The notes under the pieces are model-generated. The model was not told the origin of the DNA, ran no database searches, and saw only the letters and a list, made by a program, of their open reading frames with translations. From Bacteroidales bacterium (lineage in GTDB: Bacteria > Bacteroidota > Bacteroidia > Bacteroidales > UBA932), in contig JAFQGK010000018.1 in the NCBI GenBank assembly GCA_017398335.1, forward strand, positions 149,731 to 213,730: DNA of 64,000 nucleotides, written 5' to 3'. This document shows positions 21,797-39,113 of the stretch, in pieces (the first letter of the stretch is position 1; the number at the start of each line of letters is the position of its first letter). Both the position numbers and the translations under genes were made by a program.

Positions 21797-21947
21797 GGAT
21801 CCCCGATCAGGTCGGGGATGACATCTGTCCGGTCGGGGATGACATCTGTCCGGTCGGGGATGACATCTGTCCGGTCGGTGATGATGTCTGTCCGGTCTGG
21901 GATGACATCTGTCGGGTAGGGGGTGATGTCTGTCCGGTAAGCAGCAA
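21797..21947. repeat. REP-like palindrome and 21-bp tandem array in the metK leader
   Basis: A palindrome (21797-21822, CCCCGA / TCGGGG arms) is followed by about six copies of a 21-base unit (consensus ATCTGTCCGGTCGGGGATGAC) starting at 21823, 21844, 21865, 21886, 21907 and 21928, the last ones degenerate. Each unit repeats half of the palindrome. The array lies between the leader terminator and the metK start codon. Confidence 0.85.
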
Positions 21948-22233: not shown

Positions 22234-25200
22234 ATGAAACAATCAATTAAGTATTTGCTGTGCACTTTGTGTGCGGTAATGTTTATGGGTGTTTCTGCTT
22301 TTGCACAGGTAACTACTTCCTCTCTTGGAGGTAAAGTCGTAGACAAGGCCGGTGAGCCTGTTATCGGTGCAGCAGTGGTTGCAACTCATGAGCCATCCGG
22401 AACCGTTTACGGTGTTGTTACAAACGAGGATGGTCGTTATGTTATCAACGGTATGCGTTCAGGTGGTCCTTACAAGGTAGAGATTTCTTGCCTTGGCTAC
22501 CAGACTGTGATCAATACCGACATTACTCTTCAGCTAGGTGAGCCATATGCCCTTAACAGTGTTGTCAATGATGACAAGGAGATGCTTAGCGAGGCTATTG
22601 TAGTAGCTCAGGCTACTTCAAGGTTTGCAGGTGAGAAGACAGGTGCTGTAACTAATATCTCAAGCAAGCAGATGGAGTCTCTTCCTAACATCAGCAGAAG
22701 CCTTGAGGATGTTTCTAAACTCTCTCCTTATGGTGGTAACGGATTGAATTTTGCCGGTGGTGACGGACGTTCGTCAAACTTCACAGTCGACGGTGCAAAC
22801 TTCAATAACAACTTCGGTAAGACAAATGACCTGCCAGGTGGCGGAAACCCTATTTCCATTGATGCTATCGAGGAAATGCAGGTCGTTATCGCTCCATATG
22901 ATGTCCGTCAGACAAACTTCATCGGTGGTGGTATGAACGCAATTACCAAGTCTGGTACAAACCAGTTCAAGGGTTCAGCTTACACTTATCACAAGAATGA
23001 GTGGATGAGAGGTAATACCAATTATCTTGGTGAGGAGTTCGGCAACCGTGCAAAGGAGAGAATCACGACTTATGGTGCAACTCTCGGTGGCCCTATCATC
23101 AAGAACAAACTCTTCTTCTTCGTAAACTTCGAGCAGAGCCAGAGCCCTAATGAGGTGAACCTGTGGAGAGCATCTGAGGATGGAGTGGCAGATCCGGATC
23201 ATTACCTGTCGCGTGCCAAGATAGCAGATATGGAAGCTGTAAAGAAGCATCTGTGGGAGAACTACGGTTATGATACAGGTTCGTATACAGACTATCCTGC
23301 TCAGACTTCAAATACGAAGGTGCTCGCACGTATTGACTGGAACATAACAGATAACCACCATCTTGCAGTACGTTACAACTATACTCTTGACCGTGGATGG
23401 GTTCCGACAAACAGATCTTCCGGAAATGCTGTCCGCAAAGCTTCAGCTGACCGTATCTCGCAGTACGGAATGGCGTTCGCAAATTCAATTTATTCAGATG
23501 ACAATCTGGTTCATTCTTTTGCATTTGACCTCAACAGCCGTTTCTCGAACAATCTTTCGAACCAGCTCCTCGTGACATTCTCAAAGCTTGACAATGTCCG
23601 TGGTTCTACTTCAGACAAGTTCCCGTTCATTGACATTCTTGATGCTGATGATTATGCTGCAGGTAAGATTATGCCTTACATCTCTGCAGGTTACGAGCTC
23701 TTCACTTGGAACAATGGTGTGCACAATAATGTCGTGACAGTAAAGGATGATATTACTTACTTTACCGGAAACCACAAGATTACTGCAGGTCTCTCATATG
23801 AGTATCAGATGGTTGACAACTCATATATGAGAAACGGTACAGGTTACTATCGTTATGCAAGCCTTGATGACTTCCTCAATCAGAGAGCCCCTGAGACAGT
23901 CTGCCTTACCTATGGTTATGATGGTGAGGAGAATCCTGCTGCACGTGTACGTTATCATCAGATCGGCGCATACGGACAGGATGAGTGGACTCCTTCTGAT
24001 AACTTCAAGCTTACATATGGTCTCCGTCTTGATATGATCGCTTTTGACAATCAGGATCTTATGACCAACAATGCTATTCTTGACGTTGATTATAACGGTA
24101 AGCATATTGACACAGGTAAGTGGCCTACAACAAAACTCAGAGTATCTCCACGTATCGGTTTCACATGGGATGTTCTTGGCAACAAGAGCCTTAAGGTTCG
24201 CGGTGGTACAGGTTTCTTCACTGGACGTCTGCCTCTCGTGTTCTTCACCAACATGCCTACAAACTCAGGTATGGTTCAGAACCTTACTTCAATCTCTACA
24301 AGCAAGGACGGCAAGGCTCCAGCTGAGCTTCAGCAGTTTGCTGGTAAGATGATTACTGATGTGAACGAATTCATCAAGAAACTTCATTCTATAGACCCAG
24401 AGAAGTATCCTTTGACAATCACTCCTGAAAAGGGTGTGATTACTGGTGCTATCCAGGCTGTTGATCCTAAGTTCAAGATGCCTACAGTATGGAAGACATC
24501 TCTTGCTGTTGACTATCAGCTTCCTGTAGGATTCCCTCTTACAGTTACAGGTGAGTTCATGTACAACAAGACCATCAATGCAGTAATGCTTCAGGACTGG
24601 AATATGGTTGATCCGGATGGCTTCAGCCGTCTTACAGGTATCGACAACCGTCATATCTTCCCTGAGACCGGTTCAAAATACACTGAAACTAATGCATATG
24701 TGTTGACAAACACTAACAAGGGTTATGGCTATACAGCAAATGTTCTGATCAATGCTCAGCCTATTCCTGAACTTAACATTGTTGCTTCTTATACACATAC
24801 TGTTCAGAAAGAGGTTTCTGGTATGCCTGGCTCAAATGCTGAGTCTGCATTCACTTACATCCCTTCAATCGAGGGCCCTAACCATGTAGGCGTTCATAAT
24901 TCGCAGTATGTTACCCCTGACCGTGCGTTCGTAAATCTTACTTACAATGACAAGGGCAACAACCATTATACTCTCTTCTATGAGGCTTGGAGAGGTGGCG
25001 GAAACAATAGCTACATGTACTCTCAGGACCTCAATAAGGATGGTTATGCTTACGACCTTATCTACATTCCTGCGAAGGCTGAAGATGTTCTTTGGGCGAC
25101 TCCGGAGGATGCACAGAACTTCTTCGCATTCGTAGAGCAGGATAAGTATCTCAGCACTCACAAGGGCCAGTATGCAGAGGCTTACAGCGTATACTCTCCT

Positions 25201-25509
25201 TGGGTTCACAGACTCAACTTCCGTTATGCTCATGACTTCAAGTTCAATATCGGCAAGTCTGTAAACACTATTCAGCTTAATGTAGACTTCAACAATATCC
25301 TTAACGTGTTCAATCCGGCATGGGGTGTTGCCAAGTATATGAATCCTTCAATCAACGAGGGTAGAATCCTTTCTGTTGACCACATCAACAATGAAGGTGC
25401 TCCTGTATTCAAGTCAAACGTGAAGGCTGATACTCCTACATGGTTGCCATCCTCTGGACTTGGACAGTGCTGGTATTTCCAGGTCGGTATCAAGTATATG
25501 TTTAACTAA
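22234..25509 (+). CDS. Oar-like TonB-dependent receptor with carboxypeptidase regulatory-like domain
   Basis: 1091 residues. Signal peptide ending near AFAQ, a regulatory-like beta-sandwich (about 28-112), then a plug domain with DVSKLSPYGGNGLNFAGG and NFTVDGANFNNNFG, typical of the Oar subgroup, and a large barrel ending GIKYMFN. It lacks the SusC signature and no SusD gene follows. Such receptors use TonB energy to take in a ligand or act as surface proteins. It is the first gene of a unit whose second gene, 15 bases on, is an OB-fold/BACON lipoprotein; the unit ends in a strong terminator at 27759. Confidence 0.88.
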   Translation: MKQSIKYLLCTLCAVMFMGVSAFAQVTTSSLGGKVVDKAGEPVIGAAVVATHEPSGTVYGVVTNEDGRYVINGMRSGGPYKVEISCLGYQTVINTDITLQLGEPYALNSVVNDDKEMLSEAIVVAQATSRFAGEKTGAVTNISSKQMESLPNISRSLEDVSKLSPYGGNGLNFAGGDGRSSNFTVDGANFNNNFGKTNDLPGGGNPISIDAIEEMQVVIAPYDVRQTNFIGGGMNAITKSGTNQFKGSAYTYHKNEWMRGNTNYLGEEFGNRAKERITTYGATLGGPIIKNKLFFFVNFEQSQSPNEVNLWRASEDGVADPDHYLSRAKIADMEAVKKHLWENYGYDTGSYTDYPAQTSNTKVLARIDWNITDNHHLAVRYNYTLDRGWVPTNRSSGNAVRKASADRISQYGMAFANSIYSDDNLVHSFAFDLNSRFSNNLSNQLLVTFSKLDNVRGSTSDKFPFIDILDADDYAAGKIMPYISAGYELFTWNNGVHNNVVTVKDDITYFTGNHKITAGLSYEYQMVDNSYMRNGTGYYRYASLDDFLNQRAPETVCLTYGYDGEENPAARVRYHQIGAYGQDEWTPSDNFKLTYGLRLDMIAFDNQDLMTNNAILDVDYNGKHIDTGKWPTTKLRVSPRIGFTWDVLGNKSLKVRGGTGFFTGRLPLVFFTNMPTNSGMVQNLTSISTSKDGKAPAELQQFAGKMITDVNEFIKKLHSIDPEKYPLTITPEKGVITGAIQAVDPKFKMPTVWKTSLAVDYQLPVGFPLTVTGEFMYNKTINAVMLQDWNMVDPDGFSRLTGIDNRHIFPETGSKYTETNAYVLTNTNKGYGYTANVLINAQPIPELNIVASYTHTVQKEVSGMPGSNAESAFTYIPSIEGPNHVGVHNSQYVTPDRAFVNLTYNDKGNNHYTLFYEAWRGGGNNSYMYSQDLNKDGYAYDLIYIPAKAEDVLWATPEDAQNFFAFVEQDKYLSTHKGQYAEAYSVYSPWVHRLNFRYAHDFKFNIGKSVNTIQLNVDFNNILNVFNPAWGVAKYMNPSINEGRILSVDHINNEGAPVFKSNVKADTPTWLPSSGLGQCWYFQVGIKYMFN

Positions 25510-25524
25510 TCCGATACGAATAGT

Positions 25525-27732
25525 ATGAAATTAAGATATTTTTTGACATCAATAGTTGCATGCCTTGCGCTTGCAATCGGATGTACCAAGGAAGAGCTTC
25601 CGGGCCTTTCTGAAATTCAGGTGACTCCATCATACTTTACTTTCGGAGTAGATGGTGGATCTAAGACTCTTACAGTGACTGCTTCTGCTGACTGGACCGT
25701 TACAGACGTTCCTGAATGGCTTACAGTAAGTCCTGCAAAAGGTTCAGCTACAGATGCAGAGGGCGTGAAGGTAACTGTCACAGCGGCTGCTACATCAGCA
25801 GAGCAGATAGTTACTGCTACTCTTAAGTTCAATTGTGCAGGCAAGACACAGCTTGTAACCGTAGGTCAGGAGGCTTTTGTTCCTGATTATCCTAAGTTCA
25901 AGGCTGGTGAGTATTGGATCATGTTCGCTGAAGAGGTTGCACTTCCTGTGACATCTTCTTACGGATACCTTTACACTGCGAAGGCTAACAAGTCAGAGGA
26001 CGGCAAACTTTCAAGTACTGCTGATAACATCTTCACTTTCACAGAGGTTGAGGGTGGTTTCTCTATCCAGGATGCAGCGGGCAAGTTCTATGCGATGAAG
26101 GGTACCTATACCTCTTTCAATCTTTATGATACTGCTCAGGAAAGCTATGTGTTCACTGTAAAACAGACGGGTGACGACAAGTTCGTCATTACAAACGCTA
26201 ACGGTAAGGTTATGCAGTACGATCCTGCATACAGTTCCGCAGGAGCATACGACAGTGAGAAGTCAGGTGCAATCTATCCTAATCTTGTAAGCGTAGCTGG
26301 TGCTGAAATCGCTGAGATTCTCTTCGCTGTCGAGCCTACAGAAGTGGCGCTCGAGACAGAGGCTGGCGAGTTCAATATCAATATGACCTGCAAGAACGAA
26401 GCGTTTGAAATCAACCCTTCTGCTGACTGGATCACTGTAAAGGGTATGACTTCAACCAACGGTGAGTATGTGGTTACATTCTCATATACAGAGAACACTG
26501 GTGCCGCAAGAACTGCAACCATCGACTTCGTTTCCGGCGAGGAGACAATCACAGTCAATGTTTCGCAGGAAGGTTCAATCGCAGAGGTTTCTGTTGCTGA
26601 TTTCCTTGCTGCTGCTGAAGGTCCTGCTCTCTATAAGCTTACAGGTCAGATCGCTAACATTGCAATGGACAAGAACGATCCTACCAAGGTTAATGCTTAT
26701 GGTAACTTCGACCTCATCGATGCTACCGGTTCCGTATATGTATATGGCCTTACTGCAACTCCTCAGGCAAGCAATGACAAGTCATTCGCGTCGCTCGGCC
26801 TTCAGGAGGGTGATATTGTTACCATTATCGGAACGAGATCAGCTTACAACGGTACTGCGCAGGTAGGTGGACCAGCTTACTATGTAAGCCATATCGGTCA
26901 TACTGCCGTAACTGTTTCTGAGTTCCTTGCTGCATCTGAGTCTGCTGATACTTGGTATAAGCTTACAGGTACTGTTTCTGACATTGCTATGGATAAGAAT
27001 GATCCTACCAAGGTAAATGCTTACGGAAACTTCAATCTTACAGATGAGACAGGTACTGTATATGTATACGGTCTTACAAAGAACTATGTTCCTGGAAAGA
27101 AGAACGACAAGTCGTTCGAGTCAATCGGACTTAAGAACGGAGATGTTGTTACCATTATCGGAACAAGGTCAGCTTATAACGGCACTGCTCAGGTAGGTGG
27201 TACAGCTTACTATATTTCTCATGAGTCAGATCAGTCAGGCGGTGAGGAACCTGAGACACCGGTAACTCCAGGAGAAGGTGAGACTTCGGAGGTGAAGACT
27301 CTCACAAATGCCGAGATCTGCGCAGCCATGACATCTTCAGAAACATCATATGTTGAGTACACAATCGAGTCTGCGTCAGGTGTTTGGACTGTAAATGCTT
27401 CTCAGAATAAGGCAAATACATTCCTCCAGTGCCGTGGAAAGAAGGGTGGATACATCAAGACCCCTGAGTTTGATAAGGATATCAAGTCTGTGACCATCCA
27501 CTTTACATCAGCGAAGTCAGTATATTCTAACAATACTTACTGCGTGTTCCCTTCTACATGGACAGCTCCTACTGCGGATGCTGCATATCCTGAGGATGGA
27601 AATGTAGGAAAGGCAGTGACCGATGGATCATACAGCCTGACAATCCCTGTAGATGCAGGCAACAAGCAGGTGTATGTTTCCATCATCGGCACCTACTCAT
27701 ACTATCTTGACCACATTGATGTAGCATTCTAA
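25525..27732 (+). CDS. Surface lipoprotein with BACON and duplicated OB-fold-like domains
   Basis: 735 residues. Lipobox AIGC (Cys 20) is followed by TKEE, a Lys-acidic start often seen on surface-exported lipoproteins of this phylum. Order: BACON-like domain (about 30-118), a ricin/jelly-roll-like stretch (125-260), a second BACON-like domain (265-350), two tandem copies of a roughly 105-residue domain (355-460, 462-570) each with KLTGQ/KLTGT, MDKNDPTKVNAYGNF and GDIVTIIGTRSAYNGTAQVGG, a Pro/Glu linker, and a C-terminal jelly roll. The repeated domain looks like an OB fold of the DUF5689/anticodon-binding type, a fold that often binds nucleic acid. No catalytic motif was found, so a binding role is likely. 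Confidence 0.75.
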   Translation: MKLRYFLTSIVACLALAIGCTKEELPGLSEIQVTPSYFTFGVDGGSKTLTVTASADWTVTDVPEWLTVSPAKGSATDAEGVKVTVTAAATSAEQIVTATLKFNCAGKTQLVTVGQEAFVPDYPKFKAGEYWIMFAEEVALPVTSSYGYLYTAKANKSEDGKLSSTADNIFTFTEVEGGFSIQDAAGKFYAMKGTYTSFNLYDTAQESYVFTVKQTGDDKFVITNANGKVMQYDPAYSSAGAYDSEKSGAIYPNLVSVAGAEIAEILFAVEPTEVALETEAGEFNINMTCKNEAFEINPSADWITVKGMTSTNGEYVVTFSYTENTGAARTATIDFVSGEETITVNVSQEGSIAEVSVADFLAAAEGPALYKLTGQIANIAMDKNDPTKVNAYGNFDLIDATGSVYVYGLTATPQASNDKSFASLGLQEGDIVTIIGTRSAYNGTAQVGGPAYYVSHIGHTAVTVSEFLAASESADTWYKLTGTVSDIAMDKNDPTKVNAYGNFNLTDETGTVYVYGLTKNYVPGKKNDKSFESIGLKNGDVVTIIGTRSAYNGTAQVGGTAYYISHESDQSGGEEPETPVTPGEGETSEVKTLTNAEICAAMTSSETSYVEYTIESASGVWTVNASQNKANTFLQCRGKKGGYIKTPEFDKDIKSVTIHFTSAKSVYSNNTYCVFPSTWTAPTADAAYPEDGNVGKAVTDGSYSLTIPVDAGNKQVYVSIIGTYSYYLDHIDVAF

Positions 27733-27758
27733 TAATATACATCAATAAAGCTTTTCAG

Positions 27759-27786
27759 GCGGCTCACATTTGTGGGCCGCTTTTTT
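27759..27786 (+). terminator. Rho-independent terminator
   Basis: GCGGCTCAC / GTGGGCCGC arms with an ATTT loop and six T. It ends the receptor-lipoprotein unit. Confidence 0.85.
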
Positions 27787-27815
27787 GTGTTATTTGTATA
27801 GAAATGCTATCTTTG
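27784..27815 (+). promoter_or_regulatory. Promoter for the second part of the nuclease locus
   Basis: TTTG at 27784-27787, a 20-base spacer and TATCTTTG at 27808-27815. The upstream box is made from the T tract of the preceding terminator. The next start codon is 50 bases away. Confidence 0.65.
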
Positions 27816-27864
27816 TATGTTTGGGTAATTAGGCCTTATGAATATTTGTTAATGATTTAAATAT

Positions 27865-30738
27865 ATGAAGTTAAGAAATCTGTTTGTTGTCGCGATGACG
27901 GCAATTATGGCGCTGATTTCCTGTGAGGAAGTCGAGCACTATGCGATTCCGGAACTCAAGATTAGAGAGGGCGCGGAATTGATTTTCGGTGAGGAAGGCG
28001 GAAAGTCTACCGTCACCTTTATGGCTACCAGAGATTGGAAGGTTACATCTGATGCAGACTGGGTTGCTGTGGATCCGGATTCCGGCACAGCTTCTTCTGA
28101 TGACTGCACCATTGAGGTGTCTGTCCTTCCGAATGACGGAATAGCTCGTGATACAGAGCTTTCTCTTTCAATAGGAATGCTCTCAAGAGTAATCAAGGTT
28201 TCTCAGGCCGGAAAGGGCGGAGCTACTGTAGAAGACCTTATCATTTATGCAAATGACTTTGATAAGGAGGAGGCTACCAAGACTTATGGAAGCGGTTCAA
28301 GCTATCCATATCTTGATCAGTTCGACGGATGGATCAACCATACCGGTAAGGGTGCGGCTGACGTAACCTATAACTTTACCGGAATGTCTGCCCGCTCGAA
28401 TTCTACCTCGGACAGCAACTATTCGGATTATGCCGGCTCAGGTAAGAACAATATGTTCTTCGGAGCGAATGCATATCTGGCTATCAATAAGATAGCTTTA
28501 GGTAGCGTAAAGGACTTTACACTTACATTCGGTACTGAGAAGTATGACGGAAACAATAAGACAGCTCTCTTTGACCCTGCAGAGTACCATGTATATCTGA
28601 GCAATGACGGAAAGAAGTGGGTTGAGATACAGTATACATTTGCCGGAACAGTGGCAGGCCGCTGGAATGTGGCAACTGCAAACTTCTCGGTTCCGGAAGG
28701 CACAGAAAATCTTTGGATGGCATTCAAGGTGGACGTAGCGAGCGTGTACCGTATGGATGACGTCAAGCTGATGGTGTCAGAGACAGAAGGCGCTGCTGTA
28801 AATTTTGCAGAGGGTGTAGAGATTGACTTTACTGCTGGTGGTACTGCCGGCGGTGGCTCAGGAGAAGAACCAGGCGGCGGAGAATCAGACGGCAGTGCAA
28901 TCTATTCGAACAATTTCGACAAGGCCGCTGCTACAAAGACTTACGGAAGCGGTTCAAGCTGGCCATATCTCGATCAGTTCGACGGATGGCAGAATGAGGC
29001 AGGAACAGGTGCCGCCAACGTTACCTATTCATATAAGACGGCATCTGCACGCAATAACTCAAATTCAAATGGTGATTATTCTGACTATGCCGGCTCGGGA
29101 GTGAACAATATCTTCTTCGGCGCAAATTCATATTTCGCAGTTCATGGTATCGCTCTCGGTGGCGCTCAGAATCTGACCCTTACATTCGGTACGGAGAAGT
29201 ATGACGGAAACAATAAGACAGCTCTCTTTGACCCTGCAGAGTACCATGTATATCTGAGCAATGACGGAGAGAAGTGGGTTGAGATACAGTATACATTTGC
29301 CGGAACAGTGGCAGGTCGCTGGAATGTCGCTACAGCGAACTTTACTGTTCCATCAGGTACTCAGACTCTTTCAATCTGCATGCAGGTGGATGTGGCGAGT
29401 GCGTACCGTATGGATGATATGAAGCTTGTGTCTTCGTCGACAGCAGGTACAACAGTTGATTTCTCTAACGGTGTTGCCAAGGACTTCGGAAGCGGTTCGT
29501 CTGGCGGAGATACTCCTGAACCACCGGTGCCGGGAGGAAGCAATATGACAATTGCAGAGGTTCTTGCTCTCGGTACGAATGCGGCTGCTTCAGGCAGCAC
29601 AATCGAGGCTGTTGTAATCTCAAACATGGATCTTAATAACCTTACATCGAAGAAGGGTCTTTATGTTCAGGATGAGACAGGCGGTCTTCAGTTCTACCTT
29701 GCGGCAAATCACGAATTCAAGTTCGGTGACAAGGTCAAGATCGATATGTCGGGAGTGAAGCTTGCAGAGTATAACGGCGCGGTTCAGATCAGCGGCCTTG
29801 CTCTTGAGAAGATTGAAAAACTCTCATCCGGAAACGCCGTGACTCCGAAGACGGTGAAGATTGCTGACTTCCTTGCAAACAAGTATGAGGGCCAGTATAT
29901 TGCAATCGAGGGTGTTCAGGTTGTTGAGGAAGACCTTGCCAAGACCTTTGTGATGGGTGGTGCCCACACCAGCATCAACGTTGAGGATGCCAATGGAAAC
30001 AAGTTTGCAATCTTCTCGTCCAAGTATGCTTCTTATGGTACGACGAAGGTTCCTCAGGGATCAGGTACCATCAAGGGTATCTCTTCCATCAGTAAGGGTG
30101 CAATGCAGATTATCTTTGCCCAGGAGTCTGACTTTGCGGGACTTACCGGCGAGCGTCTTACAGCCGGTGGCGGTGAGACCCCCGGCGACGGTGGAGATGA
30201 TCCTGTAACCCCACCGGCAGAGACCTCTGTCAGAAGGGCGGACTTCGAGACACTTTCACGTACAAGTTCATATGTGGCTTCCACTTCAGATGCTGGATGG
30301 GTTCTTACCAACTGTGCAGTCCAGGAAGGTGGTGAAAAGGATGCCAACCCTGTATATATTCTTCTTGGCAAGGTTGCAGGAACTGATACATGGGCAAAGG
30401 CAGCATGTATGAACGGAAAGACAACAGCAGTCGGAACAATCGAATCGCCGGAACTCACAGGCGGTTGCGGAACCCTTTCGTTCGACTATGCGAACATCTT
30501 TACCGAAGCAAATGGCGTGAACTTCCAGATCGAGGTCATTCAGAATGGCGCGGCAGTGAAGACTATTGTAGTGGATGAGGACAGCATTACAAAGATGACC
30601 AAGTACACCTTCAGTCAGGAGGTGAATGTAAGCGGTTCATTCAAGCTTAAGTTCACTAACCTCAGTCCATCCAACAACAACTCATCTAACAAGGATAGAG
30701 TTTCTATCTGGAACCTTACATGGACAGAGCATAATTAA
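27865..30738 (+). CDS. Large surface lipoprotein: BACON, duplicated jelly roll, DUF5689-like OB fold
   Basis: 957 residues. Lipobox LISC (Cys 20). Order: BACON-like domain (about 30-118), two copies of a jelly-roll module of some 200 residues (from about 128 and 348), each starting with Y(A/S)N(D/N)FDK and containing GSGSS-PYLDQFDGW, separated by Gly/Ser-rich linkers; a DUF5689-like OB fold (about 560-770) with GLYVQDETGGLQFYL and GDKVKIDMSGVKL; a Gly/Pro linker; and a last jelly roll. No catalytic residues are recognised. It is probably a cell-surface binding protein of the nuclease locus. The two jelly rolls share 149 bases of nearly identical DNA, so the duplication is recent or maintained by conversion. 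Confidence 0.75.
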   Translation: MKLRNLFVVAMTAIMALISCEEVEHYAIPELKIREGAELIFGEEGGKSTVTFMATRDWKVTSDADWVAVDPDSGTASSDDCTIEVSVLPNDGIARDTELSLSIGMLSRVIKVSQAGKGGATVEDLIIYANDFDKEEATKTYGSGSSYPYLDQFDGWINHTGKGAADVTYNFTGMSARSNSTSDSNYSDYAGSGKNNMFFGANAYLAINKIALGSVKDFTLTFGTEKYDGNNKTALFDPAEYHVYLSNDGKKWVEIQYTFAGTVAGRWNVATANFSVPEGTENLWMAFKVDVASVYRMDDVKLMVSETEGAAVNFAEGVEIDFTAGGTAGGGSGEEPGGGESDGSAIYSNNFDKAAATKTYGSGSSWPYLDQFDGWQNEAGTGAANVTYSYKTASARNNSNSNGDYSDYAGSGVNNIFFGANSYFAVHGIALGGAQNLTLTFGTEKYDGNNKTALFDPAEYHVYLSNDGEKWVEIQYTFAGTVAGRWNVATANFTVPSGTQTLSICMQVDVASAYRMDDMKLVSSSTAGTTVDFSNGVAKDFGSGSSGGDTPEPPVPGGSNMTIAEVLALGTNAAASGSTIEAVVISNMDLNNLTSKKGLYVQDETGGLQFYLAANHEFKFGDKVKIDMSGVKLAEYNGAVQISGLALEKIEKLSSGNAVTPKTVKIADFLANKYEGQYIAIEGVQVVEEDLAKTFVMGGAHTSINVEDANGNKFAIFSSKYASYGTTKVPQGSGTIKGISSISKGAMQIIFAQESDFAGLTGERLTAGGGETPGDGGDDPVTPPAETSVRRADFETLSRTSSYVASTSDAGWVLTNCAVQEGGEKDANPVYILLGKVAGTDTWAKAACMNGKTTAVGTIESPELTGGCGTLSFDYANIFTEANGVNFQIEVIQNGAAVKTIVVDEDSITKMTKYTFSQEVNVSGSFKLKFTNLSPSNNNSSNKDRVSIWNLTWTEHN
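28522..28670 (+). repeat. 149-bp intragenic direct repeat, copy 1
   Basis: Pairs with 29179-29327; three mismatches were counted by eye in 149 bases. Both copies encode the same part of the duplicated jelly-roll domain. Confidence 0.9.
29179..29327 (+). repeat. 149-bp intragenic direct repeat, copy 2
   Basis: Second copy, 657 bases downstream of the first and in the same frame; the distance is 219 codons. Confidence 0.9.
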
Positions 30739-30746
30739 GATAATTG

Positions 30747-31952
30747 ATGAGGATATTCAACCATATATATGGAGCAGCAGTAGCCGTGATGGCTGTCTGC
30801 TGTCTCCTTCTGTCTTCCTGTGAGAAGGAAGATGCGCAGCAGGTCAGCGTATCCGTGACTCCGGATCTTTTGGGCGCAAAGACCAATATGAATGCCTACG
30901 TCAGGGTGAAATGCGCCGGAAGCTGGACTTTGTCTCTGGAATATGAGGATGAAGGAGAAGATTGGGCAAGTCTTGACGTGACTTCAGGAGCTGGAAACAG
31001 GAACAGCATACTGCTGTCGCTTTCTGCAAATTCATCAGAGGCCAGACGTTCTATGAAAGTTGTCCTGAAATCAGGTGAGGTTACTGCAGAGTGTGTTGTT
31101 ACACAGAAGGCTCCGGGTGAGGAAACCAATGGTGGCATCACTCCGGGAGGATCTGGCGGCGGATCTTCGGATGGCGTTTCCGGGGGATCGTCTCTGGCAA
31201 AGACCGGATGGATGGAACTCCCGAATATGGACGATCCGGCTCTGGGATATTATTCGCACAGCTTCAAGATGGGCGGAAAGACATACCGTAACTATACCTT
31301 CGGATGGAGCCAGAAGGACCTTGTGGCAGTCTGGGTGGCTTATCCGTTGTGCAGATTATATACAAACGGAAATGTCGGCAGAACAGATGCATGGGCTTAT
31401 GATCCTCTGCTGGGAACGGACTCTGCAGCTCCTTTCGGCGGATATGGTGAAGAGCTCGCAAGAGGTCATCAGCTCCCGTCTGCGGACCGTCAGTGCTGCT
31501 ATGAGGCAAATGCCCAGACATTCTACGGCACAAACATGACACCGCAGCTTAATGCTCATAATGAAAAGATATGGGCGGATCTTGAAGCAAAGGTAAGAGG
31601 CTATGCCAATACATCCGACACGACATATGTAGTGACAGGAGTCATTCTGGACGACAGTACCAGGATTACATATGATTCGGACAGAAAGCCGATAACCGTC
31701 CCTTCCGCTTATTTCAAGGCTGTGTTGAAGTACAATGAGTCGTCGACACAGGGCACATGGAATGCTGCTGCCTTCTATCTGGAACACAGAGCATATTCAG
31801 GCAGTGTGACACGCTCGCATTCAATGTCCATAGACAGACTGGAGGACATGACTGGTATAGACTTCTTTGTGAATCTTCCGGCAAAGGTCGGAAAGGAACA
31901 GGCGGATAAGATAGAAGCCGCTGATCCGGCTAACGTTGCGTTATGGTGGTAA
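30747..31952 (+). CDS. DNA/RNA non-specific endonuclease lipoprotein
   Basis: 401 residues from the ATG at 30747. Lipobox LSSC (Cys 25) followed by EKED. A BACON-like domain (about 30-125) and a Gly/Ser linker precede the nuclease domain. That domain has the NUC1/Serratia-nuclease beta-beta-alpha-metal motif ARGHQLPSADR with the general-base His at about 241, followed by TNMTPQ and a downstream Asn (N-x-x-x-W) for magnesium. Family members cut DNA and RNA, single or double stranded. The lipid anchor and linker place it at the cell surface or in the periplasm. It lies eight bases after the large binding lipoprotein. Confidence 0.9.
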   Translation: MRIFNHIYGAAVAVMAVCCLLLSSCEKEDAQQVSVSVTPDLLGAKTNMNAYVRVKCAGSWTLSLEYEDEGEDWASLDVTSGAGNRNSILLSLSANSSEARRSMKVVLKSGEVTAECVVTQKAPGEETNGGITPGGSGGGSSDGVSGGSSLAKTGWMELPNMDDPALGYYSHSFKMGGKTYRNYTFGWSQKDLVAVWVAYPLCRLYTNGNVGRTDAWAYDPLLGTDSAAPFGGYGEELARGHQLPSADRQCCYEANAQTFYGTNMTPQLNAHNEKIWADLEAKVRGYANTSDTTYVVTGVILDDSTRITYDSDRKPITVPSAYFKAVLKYNESSTQGTWNAAAFYLEHRAYSGSVTRSHSMSIDRLEDMTGIDFFVNLPAKVGKEQADKIEAADPANVALWW

Positions 31953-31963
31953 AAGAACAGATT

Positions 31964-33049
31964 ATGAAAATGAAAAGAATAATATGCATTCTTGCGGCGC
32001 TTCTTCTTCTGATCATAGGAGCGGAAGCCCAGAAAAAGGGTCAGCAGAATTATGTGATAGGATTCTACAATCTGGAGAATCTCTTTGACACATATAACGA
32101 TCCTGCTAAGAATGACGAGGAGTTCCTTCCTGAAGGAAAGAACAAATGGACTGATGCCAAGTATCAGAAGAAACTCGGCAACATGGCCAAGGTCATCAAG
32201 GCCATGAAGGATGAAAACGGTGCATGGCATACCCTTCTGGGTGTGTCGGAAATCGAGAACCGTCTCGTGCTTGAGGATCTGGTGATGGATCCTCAGATTG
32301 CAGAGGCAAACTATCAGATCATTCACTATGACGGTCCTGATCGTCGAGGTGTGGATGTGGCTCTCCTTTACAGGCCGGACAGCTTCAAATATATTGAGAG
32401 TGAATCAATACCTTTCACATTTGAGGGAAGTTCCATTGATTTCATCATGGATCAGGAGCAGAAGGATTACTTCAGGACCCGTGATATCCTGATGGTACAT
32501 GGAACCATTGATGGTGAGCACTTTGCGATCTATGTTGCCCACCTTCCGTCACGTGCCGGCGGAAAGAAGGGAGGCAACCAGCTTCGCGACCGCGGCGGCG
32601 AGATAATGTATGACCATGCAATGAAGATGCAGCAGAAGTATCCGGGCATCAAGATCGTCTGCATGGGTGATATGAATGACAATCCTACAGATCCGAGCAT
32701 GGCTGAGTATATGCACGGAAAGGAGCATAGGTCAGAGGTTACAGACAAGGATTTCTTCTCGCCTTTCACATCTATGCTGAAGGCAGGCTTCGGCTCTCTT
32801 GCATATCAGGGAGTATGGAGTATTTATGACCTTCTTCTGGTCAATAATGCCCTTGCAAATGCTCCTGAAGGCACTTTTGAGATCCGTCAGCTTCACAAGA
32901 AAGGCTATTACGGACGCGTGTTCAATCCTAAATTCCTCACAAACCAGCAGGGACAATATAAAGGAACGCCATTCAGGACATTCTCAAATGGCTCCTTCAT
33001 CGGAGGATATAGTGACCACTATCCTACTTACATTGTAATAAGTAAATAA
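31964..33049 (+). CDS. Secreted endonuclease/exonuclease/phosphatase-family enzyme
   Basis: 361 residues from the ATG at 31964; an earlier in-frame ATG overlaps the preceding stop and would give a poor signal peptide. Signal peptide ends near AEAQ. All motifs of the EEP fold are visible: FYNLENLFDT, GVSEIEN (metal-binding Glu), RRGVDVALLY, AHLPSR, GDMNDNP, and the C-terminal SDHYP catalytic His. EEP enzymes are DNases, phosphodiesterases or sugar/inositol phosphatases. Following a non-specific endonuclease, a role in further degrading nucleic acid fragments is the simplest reading. Its stop overlaps the start of the next receptor (TAATG). Confidence 0.9.
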   Translation: MKMKRIICILAALLLLIIGAEAQKKGQQNYVIGFYNLENLFDTYNDPAKNDEEFLPEGKNKWTDAKYQKKLGNMAKVIKAMKDENGAWHTLLGVSEIENRLVLEDLVMDPQIAEANYQIIHYDGPDRRGVDVALLYRPDSFKYIESESIPFTFEGSSIDFIMDQEQKDYFRTRDILMVHGTIDGEHFAIYVAHLPSRAGGKKGGNQLRDRGGEIMYDHAMKMQQKYPGIKIVCMGDMNDNPTDPSMAEYMHGKEHRSEVTDKDFFSPFTSMLKAGFGSLAYQGVWSIYDLLLVNNALANAPEGTFEIRQLHKKGYYGRVFNPKFLTNQQGQYKGTPFRTFSNGSFIGGYSDHYPTYIVISK

Positions 33050-36000
33050 TGACTATGATAAAGAGAGTATTACTTACAGTTGCAGCAGTGCTTTGCTCCC
33101 TTTCACTTTTCGCCCAGAGCGATTTCGGAGGCGTCAAGGGTAAGGTTGTGAATCGTGCAGGCAGAATTCCGATTGCCGGCGCAGAGCTCGTACTTTCACA
33201 GAATGGAGAAAACGTCGCTTCCGTACGTTCTGACGCAGAAGGAAACTTCCTTGTGGAGAACCTTCAGAACGGCATCTATGATATGAAAGTGACAGCTCCG
33301 GGATTTCTGGATGCTAATGTGAATGTTACAGTAGAGGGCTACATAAAGGACCTGATCTTTGTGGGAATGGTTCTTGAGCAGGTAGTGACCGATGTCGATG
33401 ATTCGAACTTTGCGGAATTCGACATGGAGGATTCGGGCTTCGAGGATGCACCGTCGATTCTCTTCGGTTCCAACGACCCTTTTACAAACATTGCAAGCTT
33501 CGGATTCAGCTCGATCCGTTTCAAGAACAGAGGTTATACCAATGAGTCTCAGGACGTATATCTCAGTGGTGTCAGGATGAATGATGCCATCACCGGATAT
33601 TCTCCATATTCTCTCTGGAGCGGTCTGAATGAGGCTACAAGGAGCAAGGAAACCACAGTCGGTGTAGAGACAGCAGACGAAAGCTTCGGTGGATATAACG
33701 GTGTGACCAACATACATGCGGTTCCATCGTCGGTACGTCCGGGCTGGCGTTTCAGTGCATTGACCAACAGTGCTTTATATCGTCTTCGTCTGATGGCTAC
33801 ATATGCTTCAGGAGAACTTGACAACGGCTGGTCGTATGCATTCAATGTATCTGCCCGCGTCGGAGGAAACGATTGGGTGAAGGGTGTGTATTACCGTAAC
33901 TTCGCTTACTATGCGGGTGTGGAAAAGAGGTTCGGTGACTACAGCAGGATCAGTCTCGTGACTTTTGCAGCTCCAGGACAGCGCGGTGCGCAGAATGCTT
34001 CTACCCAGGAGGTCTATGACATGATGGGTGACAATATGTACAACAGCAACTGGGGTTATCAGAACGGAAAGGTGCGTAATGCCCGTGTCCGCAAGACCTT
34101 CGAGCCCGTGACCCTTCTGAAGTATAAATATTCAGATGATAAGGTGGATGCTTCGGTAGCCCTTCTCTGGCGTACAGGAAAGAACGGATATACAGCCATG
34201 GACTGGTATGATGCTCCGGACCCACGTCCTGATTACTATAGGAACCTTCCAAGCTACTATTATATGGAAGATCCTGACTATGACAGACAGAACTATCAGA
34301 AATATGCATGGGCACTCGATACATGGCAGCACCAGCTTCCGCAGTACACTCATATTAACTGGGACCGTCTCTATAATGTAAATGCCGGTAACTTCGATGA
34401 GATAGGTCTGCGTCGCTCGAAATATGTCATCGAGGAGCGTAGGGTAGACCAGAATGATGTTCACCTGACAGCCAATGTGAAGTATCAGCTTAACAAGGCC
34501 ATATCTCTTGCTGGAGGTATGACGCTGAGATGGAACAGGACTGAGTACTACAAGAAGCTTGACGATCTTCTCGGAGGAGACTATTTCATCAATATCGACT
34601 CTTTCGCCGAGCGTGACTTTGCGACAAATCCTGCAATGGTGCAGAACGATCTGGATTATTATATGTCCAAAGGTACTGCTCCTGTAGTCGGAAAGGGTGA
34701 CAAGTACGGATATGACTATTATGCAAATGTCATGGATGAGAGAATCTGGGGCCGTTTTGCTCTGGATCTGGGTGGCTTCAAGGCGAACCTTGCCCTTGAA
34801 GGAGGTCTGAATGAGTTCTACAGGGAAGGACTTGTCAGGAAGGGACTCTTTGCTGGTCTTGACGATAACGGTAATGAAATAGTGTACGAAGGAAAGGTTC
34901 TTACGACCTATGACTCAAACGGTAAGCCGATCACTTCCAAAGGCAGGTCCGAGCTTCAGTCTTTCTGGACATATTCAGCCAAGCTCGGCCTCCAGTACCA
35001 TTTTGCCGGCGGACACAGAGTATATGCGAATGCTGGTTATTTCAATGATGCTCCTACATTCTCACAGTCGTTCATTTCACCAAGAACCAGAAACTCTGTG
35101 GTTCCGAATCTTGAGACCATCAAGACAGTATCCACTGACCTGAATTATCAGTACAGCAATAACGGCTACAATGTGAGAGTAACCGGTTTCTACACAAAGA
35201 TCATGGATCAGTCGGATATGATGAGCTTCTATGATGACTCACAGAACTCGTTTACAAACTTTGCCATGAACGGAATTGATCAGAGGCATATGGGTATAGA
35301 GCTGGGATTCAAGATTCCTCTCGTTCTTCAGGGACTTTCTATGGAAGGAGCTCTCAGCTGGGGTGAATATATCTATACATCTGCTCCACGTATGACCCAG
35401 ACAATCGACAACAGTGCAGAAGTCATCGCAGACAATGCCCTTGTACCATATTGGGCCAGCCATCCTGTGTACAAGAAGAATGTAGTCGAAGGAAAGACAG
35501 TATATGAGACAGATGCGAAGGGAGACTTCATCGTCGAGAAGTGGCAGAAGCATTATGTTCCGTCCACCCCTCAGTTCGCGGCCAATCTTGGACTCAATTA
35601 CAGGACCAATTCATATTGGTTCTTTGAGATTGATGCTCAGTACTTTGCAAACTCATATCTCGACATGAACCCTCTGTACAGGACAGATATGGCTGTCGCC
35701 GGACCGGACAACATAGCGACTCCAGTCGAGGTGGAATATATGGCGGCTCAGGAAAGATTCGATCCTGTCTTCCTTCTCAACGCAAGCGTCGGAAAGTCAT
35801 GGTATATTGACCGCAAGTACAATTTCGGCTTCTCACTCAATCTTCAGAACATTACCAACAACAGGTATGTGAAGACCGGCGGATATGAGCAGACACGTCT
35901 CATTGACAGCAAGAGTGCAGAGAGATACTACCGCTTTGATTCCAAGTATTTTTATATGCAGGGAATCAACTATATGTTGAACCTCTATTTCAGATTCTAA
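33049..36000 (+). CDS. TonB-dependent receptor of the nuclease locus
   Basis: 983 residues. Signal peptide (ends near LFAQ), carboxypeptidase regulatory-like domain (about 25-110), an acidic stretch, then a plug (GFSSIRFKNRGYTNESQDVYLSGVRMNDAITG) and a barrel that ends MLNLYFRF. It overlaps the EEP gene by one base, and the DUF5689 lipoprotein follows after two bases, so all three are one transcript. It is neither SusC-type nor in company with a SusD, so the neighbouring lipoprotein may serve as its surface partner. Import of nuclease products is an inference from the neighbourhood. Confidence 0.88.
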   Translation: MTMIKRVLLTVAAVLCSLSLFAQSDFGGVKGKVVNRAGRIPIAGAELVLSQNGENVASVRSDAEGNFLVENLQNGIYDMKVTAPGFLDANVNVTVEGYIKDLIFVGMVLEQVVTDVDDSNFAEFDMEDSGFEDAPSILFGSNDPFTNIASFGFSSIRFKNRGYTNESQDVYLSGVRMNDAITGYSPYSLWSGLNEATRSKETTVGVETADESFGGYNGVTNIHAVPSSVRPGWRFSALTNSALYRLRLMATYASGELDNGWSYAFNVSARVGGNDWVKGVYYRNFAYYAGVEKRFGDYSRISLVTFAAPGQRGAQNASTQEVYDMMGDNMYNSNWGYQNGKVRNARVRKTFEPVTLLKYKYSDDKVDASVALLWRTGKNGYTAMDWYDAPDPRPDYYRNLPSYYYMEDPDYDRQNYQKYAWALDTWQHQLPQYTHINWDRLYNVNAGNFDEIGLRRSKYVIEERRVDQNDVHLTANVKYQLNKAISLAGGMTLRWNRTEYYKKLDDLLGGDYFINIDSFAERDFATNPAMVQNDLDYYMSKGTAPVVGKGDKYGYDYYANVMDERIWGRFALDLGGFKANLALEGGLNEFYREGLVRKGLFAGLDDNGNEIVYEGKVLTTYDSNGKPITSKGRSELQSFWTYSAKLGLQYHFAGGHRVYANAGYFNDAPTFSQSFISPRTRNSVVPNLETIKTVSTDLNYQYSNNGYNVRVTGFYTKIMDQSDMMSFYDDSQNSFTNFAMNGIDQRHMGIELGFKIPLVLQGLSMEGALSWGEYIYTSAPRMTQTIDNSAEVIADNALVPYWASHPVYKKNVVEGKTVYETDAKGDFIVEKWQKHYVPSTPQFAANLGLNYRTNSYWFFEIDAQYFANSYLDMNPLYRTDMAVAGPDNIATPVEVEYMAAQERFDPVFLLNASVGKSWYIDRKYNFGFSLNLQNITNNRYVKTGGYEQTRLIDSKSAERYYRFDSKYFYMQGINYMLNLYFRF

Positions 36001-36002
36001 AT

Positions 36003-37094
36003 ATGAAAAGAATATATACAGCAATAATGGCTGTCGTGGTCCTTCTCTCCGGATGTGAGGAGTTCCAGCCGGTGTTTACCGGAAAGTATGATGTGCCGGA
36101 GCCTGCGAGAATATACACAGATGCGGATTTCGGGACTTTGACATCGATCGCCGACGTGAAGCAGATGTATATCGACAATGACAGCAAGCCATATGATATA
36201 GTGGATAACTGCGTCATCAAGGGACAGATCGTTTCTTCTGACAAGACAGGCAACTTCTACAAGAGTTTCTATATTCAGGACGAGACTGCCGGAATCGAAA
36301 TCAAGATGGGAAAGAACGGTCTCTATAATGATTACAAGATCGGTCAGTGGGTCTATGTGGATTGCTGCAATCTTACGGTTGGAGCATACGAGGGCATGAT
36401 TCAGATCGGTTATAAGGATGAAACGGGAGAATACGAAACAGCATATCTCGAGCATCAGATCCTTATCGACCTTCATGTGTTCAAGGGCGCAATAGCAGAG
36501 GGCGCAGATCTCGTACAGCCTAAGGTAATAGCTGGAGAAGAGGTGTATGACAAGAAGAATGTCGGAACTCTTGTTACGATCGAGGGGCTGAAGTATCTGA
36601 ACAAAATCTTCTGTATCGGCTATATCAATCCTAATATCGTTGACGAAGACAAGAAGAAGTCGAATGAAAACCGTTTCTTCCTTGACGAAGAAGATCCTGA
36701 CAACTGGGGAATAAACTCATGGGCGATGTCCGAAACCTGCTTCAGGCAGCATGTGGAAAATGGTGATTTCGACAATGTCGTGATGAATGACGGTGTAACT
36801 GTCGGAGCACGCAAACATCTTATCGTACCTCAGCCTTACACAATGAACCAGTATTTCGAGATGCCGGGCCTGAGTGGTGCAAGAAGATATCTTCAGGTAC
36901 GTACAAGCGGTTATGCGAGATTCTCTGATGTCGACATTCCTGCACCGGTGCTTTCAGGAGAAGCTACTGTAACTTTCACAGGTGTGCTTACAGAATTCGA
37001 CGGCGAGATGCAGTTCACTCTTATTGACCTTAGCGGTGTCAGAAAGGCAGACGGCTCTCCTTGGTATGACGAGAACAATAAGGTAATACTTTAA
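36003..37094 (+). CDS. DUF5689-type OB-fold lipoprotein
   Basis: 363 residues, lipobox LSGC (Cys 18). After EEFQPVFTGKYDVPEP it carries a long OB-fold region of the DUF5689 type: DNCVIKGQIVSSDKTGNFYKSFYIQDETAGIEIKM split over about 65-105, and GQWVYVDCCNLTVGAYEGMIQIG after it. A second beta-rich part follows from about residue 170. Proteins with this domain regularly sit directly after TonB receptors in Bacteroidota and are thought to be surface partners of them; no enzyme activity is known. Spacing of two bases to the receptor supports a paired function. Confidence 0.8.
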   Translation: MKRIYTAIMAVVVLLSGCEEFQPVFTGKYDVPEPARIYTDADFGTLTSIADVKQMYIDNDSKPYDIVDNCVIKGQIVSSDKTGNFYKSFYIQDETAGIEIKMGKNGLYNDYKIGQWVYVDCCNLTVGAYEGMIQIGYKDETGEYETAYLEHQILIDLHVFKGAIAEGADLVQPKVIAGEEVYDKKNVGTLVTIEGLKYLNKIFCIGYINPNIVDEDKKKSNENRFFLDEEDPDNWGINSWAMSETCFRQHVENGDFDNVVMNDGVTVGARKHLIVPQPYTMNQYFEMPGLSGARRYLQVRTSGYARFSDVDIPAPVLSGEATVTFTGVLTEFDGEMQFTLIDLSGVRKADGSPWYDENNKVIL

Positions 37095-37106
37095 CCTGAA
37101 TATAAT

Positions 37107-39113
37107 ATGAAACGTGTACTTTTATCTTTAGTGATCATTATGGCAGCAATATCCTGCAATAAGATAAATCCATTCCTTGCAGAGTGGGATACGCCATACG
37201 GCATTCCTGATTTTGACTCAGTAAAGGAGAAACATTATATTCCGGCTGTGAAGATGGGAATCCGTCAGCAGCAGGGTGAGATTGATGCGATAATCGCCAA
37301 CGCTGATGCCCCGACATTCGAAAATGTTGTGGAAGCATATGAGAATTCCGGAGCTATTCTGGCACGTGTGACAGGAGTTCTCTTCAACCTGTCCGAGACC
37401 GATAGTGACGAGTCGCTGCAGAAGATAGTGGAAAAAGTGCTTCCGATGCTTTCAGAGCACAGCAACAATATCTTCATGAATCCGTATTTCTTCGCAAAGG
37501 TCGAGAAACTTCATAATGAGATTGACGATCTCGGCCTTACCCAGGAACAGAAAATGGTCCTGAAGAAGATGTACAAGTCTTTTGTAAAGAACGGAGTAGC
37601 CCTTGACGAGACTTCACAGGCACGCATGCGTGAAATCAACAAGGAACTATCTTCTCTTGAATTTACTTTCGGAAATAATCTTCTTGCAGAGAACAATGCT
37701 TTTGCAGACAGATTCGGTCTGTCAATTTCCGAGTATGCGGGTGCAATGGCGTCGACTGAGGACCGTGCGCTTCGTGAAGAAATGTTCAAGGCATATTCAT
37801 CAAGGGGCAACAACGGCAATGAATACGATAATAAGGAGCTGATACTCAAGATAATGGCTCTCCGTGTAGAGAAGGCAAAGCTTCTCGGATACGAGACTCC
37901 TGCTTCATTCATCCTTTCAGACAAGATGGCCGGTACTCCTGAGGCTGTGGATACCTTCCTTGCCGGACTAATGGCACCCGCAGTAGCCAAGGCACGCGAG
38001 GAAGTTGCAGATATGCAGACTATTATGGATGAGGATGTCAAGGCAGGCCTTCTTCCGGAAGGTTCTGTAATCGAGCCTTGGGACTGGGCATATTATGCAG
38101 AGAAGGTGCGTAAGGTGAAATATGCACTTGATGAGGAGCAGCTCAGACCTTATTTCAAGATGGAGAATGTCCGTCAGGGAGTGTTCAACACAGCATCGCG
38201 TCTTTGGGGACTTCAGTTTGAAAAGCTTGACAGCATACCGGTGTATAATCCGGAAGTTGAAGGTTTCAAGGTAACAGACGCAGACGGTTCGTTGATAGGT
38301 ATTCTTCTTACAGACTACTTCCCACGTGCGACAAAGAGGGGAGGAGCCTGGATGAGCAATTTTGTGGAGCAGAGGGTTGTTGACGGTGTAGACGTGCGCC
38401 CGGTCATTGTCAATGTCGGAAATTTTGCGAAACCTACAGAGGACAAGCCGTCGCTTCTTACCCTCGATCAGGTAGAGACTATGTTCCATGAGTTCGGCCA
38501 TGCTCTTCACGGACTTCTCAGCAAATGCACATATGTCAGCGTTGCCGGTACCTCGGTTGCGAGAGACTTTGTTGAGCTCCCATCCCAGATCATGGAGAAC
38601 TGGGCATTCCAGAAAGAGGTTCTTGCGGACTATGCACGTCATTACGAGACCGGAGAAGTGATTCCGGATTCTCTTGTGACAAAGATCAATGCCGCCGAGA
38701 CATTCAATCAGGGATTCATGACTACCGAACTCGTGGCAGCATCCGTCCTTGATATGAAATGGCATGAACTCACATCGGTAGAAGGAGTTGACCCTATGGC
38801 TTTCGAGGCTGCGGCATGCAAGGAAATGGGACTGATTGATGAAATCATCCCACGCTATCGTACAACTTATTTCAACCATATATTCAACAGTGGTTACAGC
38901 GCCGGATACTACAGCTATCTTTGGGCAGAGGTTCTCGATAAGGATGCTTTCGAACTATTCAAGCAGAAAGGTATCTTCGATCAGAACACTGCGGCATCTT
39001 TCCGTCGCAATGTTCTTGAAAAAGGTGGCAGTGACGAACCGATGGATCTTTATCGACGCTTCCGTGGTGCAGATCCGGATCCTGCAGCTCTTATCGAGTC
39101 ACGTGGACTTTAA
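37107..39113 (+). CDS. M3-family metallopeptidase (peptidyl-dipeptidase Dcp-like), lipoprotein
   Basis: 668 residues with a lipoprotein-like signal (AISC, Cys 17). The zinc site HEFGH is at residues 461-465, within the longer M3 signature TMFHEFGHALHGLLS. Length and the helical N-terminal half fit Dcp/oligopeptidase A enzymes, which remove dipeptides from or cleave short peptides. Many family members are cytoplasmic, while this one appears exported. It is 12 bases after the DUF5689 gene and may be read through from the nuclease unit, though it has no obvious link to nucleic acid. Confidence 0.88.
   Translation: MKRVLLSLVIIMAAISCNKINPFLAEWDTPYGIPDFDSVKEKHYIPAVKMGIRQQQGEIDAIIANADAPTFENVVEAYENSGAILARVTGVLFNLSETDSDESLQKIVEKVLPMLSEHSNNIFMNPYFFAKVEKLHNEIDDLGLTQEQKMVLKKMYKSFVKNGVALDETSQARMREINKELSSLEFTFGNNLLAENNAFADRFGLSISEYAGAMASTEDRALREEMFKAYSSRGNNGNEYDNKELILKIMALRVEKAKLLGYETPASFILSDKMAGTPEAVDTFLAGLMAPAVAKAREEVADMQTIMDEDVKAGLLPEGSVIEPWDWAYYAEKVRKVKYALDEEQLRPYFKMENVRQGVFNTASRLWGLQFEKLDSIPVYNPEVEGFKVTDADGSLIGILLTDYFPRATKRGGAWMSNFVEQRVVDGVDVRPVIVNVGNFAKPTEDKPSLLTLDQVETMFHEFGHALHGLLSKCTYVSVAGTSVARDFVELPSQIMENWAFQKEVLADYARHYETGEVIPDSLVTKINAAETFNQGFMTTELVAASVLDMKWHELTSVEGVDPMAFEAAACKEMGLIDEIIPRYRTTYFNHIFNSGYSAGYYSYLWAEVLDKDAFELFKQKGIFDQNTAASFRRNVLEKGGSDEPMDLYRRFRGADPDPAALIESRGL

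Follow-up and report, generated by a model that had tools for sequence, protein, structure and literature searches.

A candidate outer-membrane operon for DNA capture and import in a genus of Bacteroidales

The 64,000-nucleotide stretch of Bacteroidales DNA considered here (hereafter the window; contig JAFQGK010000018.1 of assembly GCA_017398335.1, positions 149,731 to 213,730) contains a run of genes for two TonB-linked receptors, several lipoproteins, and two putative nucleases, which a first-pass annotation had proposed to be a surface system for capturing and degrading extracellular nucleic acid. The seven genes of that proposal lie where it had placed them (Table 1): the window sequence with its translations and the Pfam domains agree on seven open reading frames (ORFs), all on the + strand, with intergenic gaps of 15, 132, 5, -10, -1, and 2 bases, the -10 hinging on the start chosen for the EEP gene. 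A Pfam scan of ten window proteins, with E values up to 0.1, gave no match to the SusD family or to a glycan-active enzyme, in agreement with the earlier description of both receptors as lacking a SusD partner, and no Plug match in receptor 2. Likewise, the NUC1 lipoprotein does carry a BACON domain of its own, as had been claimed. The jelly-roll match of protein 3 (F5_F8_type_C, 0.0017) is below the cut-off, and the repeats are visible in the translation. A search of the genome located two DUF5689 genes, both within this locus (proteins 3 and 7).

Table 1. Features of the locus, in window coordinates.
Feature	Position	Strand	Evidence
TonB-dependent receptor 1 (Oar-like barrel, CarboxypepD_reg)	22234-25509	+	PF25183 (OMP_b-brl_4) 1.3e-51; PF13620 2e-19; Plug 5.5e-4 (below cut-off)
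Protein 2, lipoprotein, BACON (two stretches) and two tandem OB repeats	25525-27732	+	Pfam; PF01336
Tandem OB-fold repeats of protein 2	26581-27237	+	PF01336 8e-6, 26.1 bits, just below cut-off of 27
Terminator-like site, 11-pair stem and T run	27757-27782	+	heads list of 17 terminator-like sites (11.8 expected by chance)
Bacteroides-type promoter-like site, TTTG-N19-TATGTTTG	27793-27823	+	0 mismatches; one of two perfect in window
Protein 3, lipoprotein, BACON, two repeated jelly-roll-like stretches, DUF5689	27865-30738	+	PF18942 9.9e-33; PF13004 2.6e-8
DUF5689 domain of protein 3	29530-30144	+	Pfam
Protein 4, NUC1-type DNA/RNA non-specific endonuclease lipoprotein with BACON	30744-31952	+	Endonuclease_NS PF01223 1.7e-33
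Protein 5, EEP-fold enzyme, signal peptide, without lipobox	31943-33049	+	Exo_endo_phos_3 PF19580 1.8e-94
TonB-linked receptor 2	33049-36000	+	TonB barrel and CarboxypepD_reg; RA0C_RS04915 homologue
Protein 7, DUF5689 lipoprotein, N-terminal OB-like domain	36003-37094	+	Pfam DUF5689; RA0C_RS04920 homologue
Lipoprotein M3 peptidase (Dcp-like), last gene of unit	37107-39113	+	PF01432 2.3e-130; 12 bp past protein 7

The run is probably split into two transcription units, because terminator-like and promoter-like sequences lie between proteins 2 and 3 (27757-27823); a single operon for the whole run was rejected on the same sequences. Receptor 1 and protein 2, the first BACON/OB lipoprotein, would thus form a separate upstream unit. 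We take the operon of interest to be 27865-39113, with the M3 peptidase included. The promoter pattern searched for is the Bacteroides consensus. Among 32 in-genus loci, a promoter-like site stands ahead of the gene preceding NUC1 in 12 and ahead of the NUC1 gene itself in 3 more, and no such site is recorded in any intergenic gap from NUC1 to M3, sites inside genes having been dropped. Of 25 in-genus loci, 12 have a receptor 1 homologue on the upstream side, and many of the loci stop short of that position.

The linkage of the receptor 2, DUF5689, EEP, and NUC1 genes within the genus is real. Receptor 2 was surveyed in 61 genomes, 37 of the genus (that of the window included) and 24 from other families of the order, and coordinates of PF19580 and PF01223 matches were taken from 41 genus genomes. 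Full-length receptor 2 is present in 26 of the 37 genus genomes, at 27 places, and at every one of these an EEP match lies 2-88 bp upstream, with NUC1 upstream of EEP on the same strand. A failure of the nuclease genes to be conserved with the receptors had been named beforehand as grounds for abandoning the idea; the association with receptor 2 and DUF5689 was instead found at 27 of 27 places. Both nuclease families also occur elsewhere in these genomes, with 72 EEP and 101 NUC1 matches across the 41. Downstream of receptor 2, a DUF5689 gene follows directly in all 25 of the other in-genus loci that were read (L033-L057), as it does after a 2-bp gap in the window, and the M3 peptidase comes directly after DUF5689 in 20 of the 25 (one gene further off in L044).

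Nine more EEP-NUC1 pairs in the 41 genus genomes have no recorded downstream receptor 2. Four of these (in G346, G347, G348, and contig C82 of G349) were outside the receptor 2 survey, and receptor 2 is present on reading; two (G015 C77 and G349 C63) are partial EEP matches; and three (G001, G008, and G019) are without full receptor 2. In G001 and G008, both incomplete genomes, NUC1, EEP, and M3 are contiguous, and receptor 2 and DUF5689 are missing together at the locus, DUF5689 elsewhere not having been sought. The incomplete genome G019, with the same limit on the DUF5689 search, retains a 542-amino-acid receptor-like ORF and has no DUF5689 at the locus. The earlier suggestion that the DUF5689 lipoprotein is the partner of the receptor thus agrees both with their adjacency in 25 of 25 loci and with their joint absence in G001 and G008. 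Outside the genus, eight loci from other families of the order (L058-L064 and L066, strong or middling matches) were compared: in five, receptor 2 is flanked by a divergent EEP gene and, on its opposite side, by DUF5689; both neighbours are missing in L060 and L066, and L064 ends before EEP. A distant paralogue of receptor 2 (816 amino acids; L065:518-2965) lies on contig C40 of the window's own genome, with no DUF5689 or EEP match in the surrounding 12 kb that was read.

Profile comparison (PF01336, hhalign) supports the OB domains that had been predicted in the lipoproteins. Specifically, the OB repeats of protein 2 align to each other and to lipoprotein homologues in other loci, among them one in L043 that lies directly upstream of NUC1 and matches PF01336 at 4.1e-25. 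The N-terminal part of the DUF5689 lipoproteins is OB-like as well: 20 of 37 members match PF01336 at E<=0.1 (best 6.5e-5), and comparison of the DUF5689 profile with the OB repeats by hhalign gave 82.7%. The lipobox cysteine, Cys18, is invariant in all 37; one member has a lamin tail domain and one has DUF6359. Among 14 controls, the DUF5689 model scored above its cut-off in Bacillus subtilis, where we would guess that the protein is the OB-containing nuclease YhcR. Against the Protein Data Bank (PDB), the best match of the DUF5689 protein was GroES at 0.23, the DUF5689 profile matched a DUF4955 chain (8jiy, 2.2e-4) in its C-terminal part only, and the receptor 2 profile matched several chains in its N-terminal CarboxypepD_reg-like part, one of them a SusC homologue, and OprC weakly.

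Both putative nucleases retain the residues expected of active enzymes. In NUC1 enzymes, the characteristic motif comprises RGH, a metal-binding N, and a conserved E, and all 25 aligned copies keep them unchanged; 22 of the 25 have a lipobox-like motif. The closest PDB matches of the NUC1 protein are secreted nucleases, NucA of Anabaena (1.1e-14) and the nuclease of Serratia (5e-14). Outside the locus, another BACON/NUC1 protein (574 amino acids; L067:11111-12832) lies on contig C6 of the same genome, near 52 kb, and in another locus a single 825-amino-acid chain (L041:8923-11400) consists of BACON, a jelly-roll-like stretch just below cut-off, and NUC1, replacing the separate lipoprotein and nuclease genes. 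For the EEP enzyme, the E, D, N, and H residues of the motifs NLEN, SEIEN, RG-D, H-PSR, GD-ND, and SDH, which have metal-binding and catalytic roles in this fold, are kept in 31 of 31 copies. The EEP fold noted at first pass is borne out. A position at the cell surface is less likely: the protein has a signal peptide, its domain reaches the C terminus, and a lipobox-like motif occurs in just 5 of 31 copies (the pattern used falsely flags 4 of 35 receptors), for which reasons a surface lipoprotein was rejected, the enzyme is more likely to be soluble and periplasmic, and it is probably a periplasmic nuclease. The single EEP sequence gave 0 matches in the PDB at 0.001.

It is informative to compare this locus with a gene pair of Riemerella anatipestifer, a bacterium of ducks. 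The only open-licence paper found to name DUF5689 reports a transposon screen for natural transformation in that species; in it, RA0C_RS04915 (CarboxypepD_reg, predicted outer membrane) adjoins RA0C_RS04920 (DUF5689 and DUF5017), and markerless deletion of either gene left no detectable transformants, versus 5.4e-5 in the wild type (PMC8459023). This is also the only genetics that we found on relatives, and it concerns transformation, not growth. In that paper, RS04910 is mentioned once, as an upstream gene with unchanged transcription, the words exonuclease and EEP are absent, and the neighbouring EEP gene is given no role (PMC8459023). Mutants in tonBA or tonBB of R. anatipestifer are reported to transform poorly, the effect of tonBB perhaps running through iron (PMC8383284). 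Homologues of the pair are listed for the genus of Flavobacterium johnsoniae (Table 4 of the published work). Among the open-licence titles and abstract openings listed, there is no account of an EEP gene joined to this pair, or of the present Bacteroidales locus.

Judged by alignment, receptor 2 (over its full length) and protein 7 (in its OB region) are homologous to RA0C_RS04915 and RS04920. Receptor 2 and the receptor of locus L121 align over their entire lengths (27% over 1022 columns, E 6e-96), protein 7 aligns with the Riemerella-type DUF5689 protein at 29% over the 204 columns of the OB region (E 1e-16), and the EEP enzyme aligns with that beside the Riemerella receptor at 30% over 314 columns (E 6e-54). 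That the receptors of L121 and L141 correspond to RS04915 we infer from gene order and domains: in L121 the order is ComEC, two genes, EEP, receptor, and DUF5689/DUF5017, in agreement with tag numbers 04895 to 04920, and L141, from a record named R. anatipestifer with 93% receptor identity, reads ComEC, two genes, EEP, receptor, DUF5689, one ORF, a Cas9-like gene, and Cas1. The Cas9-like gene (RuvC_III, HNH_4) and Cas1 (L141:13664-18775) are thus near the DUF5689 gene, with ComEC on the opposite side beyond EEP. M949_1556 may correspond to RS04920. In both R. anatipestifer and the window, a full-length homologous CarboxypepD_reg receptor is followed by a DUF5689 lipoprotein and has EEP on its other side. 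The R. anatipestifer EEP gene, however, is divergent, with two genes separating it from comEC on its far side, and the stretches examined there contain no NUC1 match; here EEP, NUC1, the lipoproteins, and M3 all point the same way, and ComEC lies on a different contig.

The core of EEP, receptor 2, and DUF5689 recurs in other Bacteroidota, with searches reaching several families of Bacteroidales as well as records titled Sphingobacteriales and Bacteroidota. A search with the Riemerella-type receptor gave 64 loci. The divergent neighbour is EEP in 60 of them; of the other four, L184 differs, the receptor of L190 is split, and L185 and L202 begin at the end of a contig. In 61 of the 64, the receptor is followed by DUF5689 as the next gene (exceptions L165, L171, and L178). 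The nearest NCBIfam model to protein 7, NF052645, is named after a Riemerella gene and matches below its cut-off; it served only to find flavobacterial loci, and from 31 matching genomes 20 loci were taken, with receptor 2 beside DUF5689 in 19 and EEP beside receptor 2 in 15. One further family (f28) has receptor 2 matches in 86 of 90 genomes, and of 20 that were read, 17 have EEP and 18 have DUF5689 as a neighbour of receptor 2. Finally, an even sample of 148 genomes was drawn from the phylum, with six receptor 2 candidates scored per genome and EEP neighbourhoods compared by eye; receptor 2 was found at E<=1e-60 in 24, of which 22 were strong (over 770 bits), and EEP adjoins it in 15 of these 22, the window's own genome included. 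Pairwise identities across 47 loci correlate between receptor 2 and DUF5689 (0.77) and between receptor 2 and EEP (0.87), values not used as support because shared ancestry alone yields them.

These observations suggest, with a probability of roughly 0.6, that 27865-39113 is an operon for the capture of DNA at the outer membrane and its import, and the idea of the first-pass annotation as a whole is partly supported. The OB/BACON lipoproteins would keep nucleic acid at the cell surface, where the NUC1 lipoprotein would cut it; the DUF5689 lipoprotein would pass DNA by way of its OB domain to receptor 2, which would carry it over the outer membrane using TonB energy; and the EEP enzyme would trim the imported DNA in the periplasm. 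The L041 protein, which unites BACON and NUC1 with a jelly-roll-like stretch, speaks for this reading. In this genus the imported product most likely serves as food (nucleotides, phosphate), and the locus may possibly serve transformation as well. Nutrition is favoured by the grouping of two nucleases with a peptidase in a single operon and by the persistence of the nucleases in G001 and G008, where the importer is missing from the locus; the deletion genetics of R. anatipestifer favours transformation. A broader proposal, to which we would give slightly less than even odds, is that Bacteroidota share a pilus-independent outer-membrane DNA importer, made up of a distinct TonB-linked receptor family, an OB-fold DUF5689 protein as SusD-like partner, and EEP behind, and that Flavobacteria use it for transformation and this genus of Bacteroidales for nucleic-acid utilization, with surface NUC1 and OB/BACON lipoproteins added.

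Several observations weigh against DNA import by this operon. No role in DNA use is evident for the M3 peptidase, the BACON part of protein 2 resembles a solved GH16 chain (8va4, 1.8e-6), which is a glycan hint, and no match points to a substrate for EEP, the profile of which matches Nocturnin only weakly (9e-4). NUC1 and EEP are kept without receptor 2 in G001 and G008, and therefore the nucleases do not need this importer. Likewise, 7 of the 22 strong genomes in the phylum sample (G097, G077, G128, G085, G202, G081, and G167) are without EEP adjacency, and EEP is far commoner than receptor 2 (82 vs 24 of the 148 genomes). The promoter pattern is not enriched window-wide (8 sites with at most one mismatch, two of which are perfect, vs an expectation of 4.6; at least 8 occur in 12 of 100 shuffles). 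Furthermore, in the R. anatipestifer paper the word 'complement' is absent and the DNA-import step is called a speculative model (PMC8459023), and therefore the Riemerella phenotype could be indirect. F. johnsoniae is reported not to be competent under the conditions used for Riemerella columbina (PMC7965970).

It is also worth considering that the locus could be the natural-transformation apparatus proper, taking up long DNA for recombination, with NUC1 an entry nuclease like EndA or NucM. Transformation of R. anatipestifer requires the receptor/lipoprotein pair (PMC8459023), the Moraxella entry nuclease NucM is a NUC1-family enzyme (PMC6384898), 40 of the 41 genus genomes have a ComEC domain, and DprA is present in the genome of the window. 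Nonetheless, ComEC occurs in all 11 genus genomes that lack receptor 2 and in 25 of the 26 that have receptor 2, so that the two do not track, and the ComEC of the window's genome is a 363-amino-acid ORF (L210:1372-2460) that has the Competence domain only, without the DUF4131 part seen in R. anatipestifer. ComEC matches in other genus genomes also fall in ORFs of about 130-430 amino acids. Two nucleases and a peptidase suggest digestion instead, and a secretin and a GspE-like fragment in the same genome make another DNA route possible; we consider an apparatus dedicated to transformation unlikely. The secretin gene follows the GspE-like C-terminal fragment, identified by eye, on a contig of 4025 bp (L209; C54) that could be a contaminant.

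Equally improbable, in our estimation, is the scavenging of other phosphoesters or of nucleoprotein debris, with EEP acting as a phosphatase-like enzyme, M3 and NUC1 digesting cell debris, the receptors importing other ligands, and the Riemerella phenotype indirect. EEP folds act on many phosphoesters and BACON domains are often linked to glycans or mucins; the resemblance of the protein 2 BACON part to GH16, the M3 lipoprotein peptidase directly downstream in 20 of 25 loci, and the fact that receptor 1 is no close relative of the transformation gene point the same way. Yet the NUC1 protein is most like general nucleases in the PDB, and OB domains recur in lipoproteins beside NUC1.

The candidate DNA-import operon can be set beside several known systems. 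Like a SusC/SusD polysaccharide utilization locus, it combines a TonB receptor and a neighbouring lipoprotein partner with lipoproteins of putative binding and hydrolytic function; it differs in that receptor 2 is without a Pfam Plug match and the partner is an OB/DUF5689 protein, and with neither SusD nor a glycan enzyme matched among the ten proteins, a classical locus of this kind was rejected. In the extracellular nuclease ExeM of Shewanella, a region with two putative OB folds is reported to be crucial for activity (PMC6085458). An OB-like region is thus needed by an EEP nuclease in the ExeM/Xds group, in which OB and EEP are in one chain, whereas here they are separate proteins of one operon (PMC6085458). 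The entry nucleases EndA and NucM likewise belong to the DNA/RNA non-specific endonuclease family and act at the cell envelope (PMC6384898), but the nuclease here, whose part in uptake is hypothetical, is a lipoprotein with a BACON domain.

Apart from these genes, a 21-bp unit (GGTCGGGGATGACATCTGTCC) is repeated in tandem about six times at 21810-21938 of the window, between the SAM synthetase gene and receptor 1, and further tandem arrays occur at 3436-3613 and 18545-18678, with units of 20-27 bp among others.

In R. anatipestifer, no pilus homologues were detected (PMC8459023). The two outer-membrane transformation genes of that species belong to a gene set that includes EEP, and in this genus of Bacteroidales the set also takes in a putative surface nuclease and OB lipoproteins; the locus may therefore show how such bacteria move DNA through the outer membrane. 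If the proposal is correct, the polymers that a TonB receptor imports together with a surface lipoprotein would include DNA as well as glycans, and one machine would be common to DNA feeding and gene uptake.

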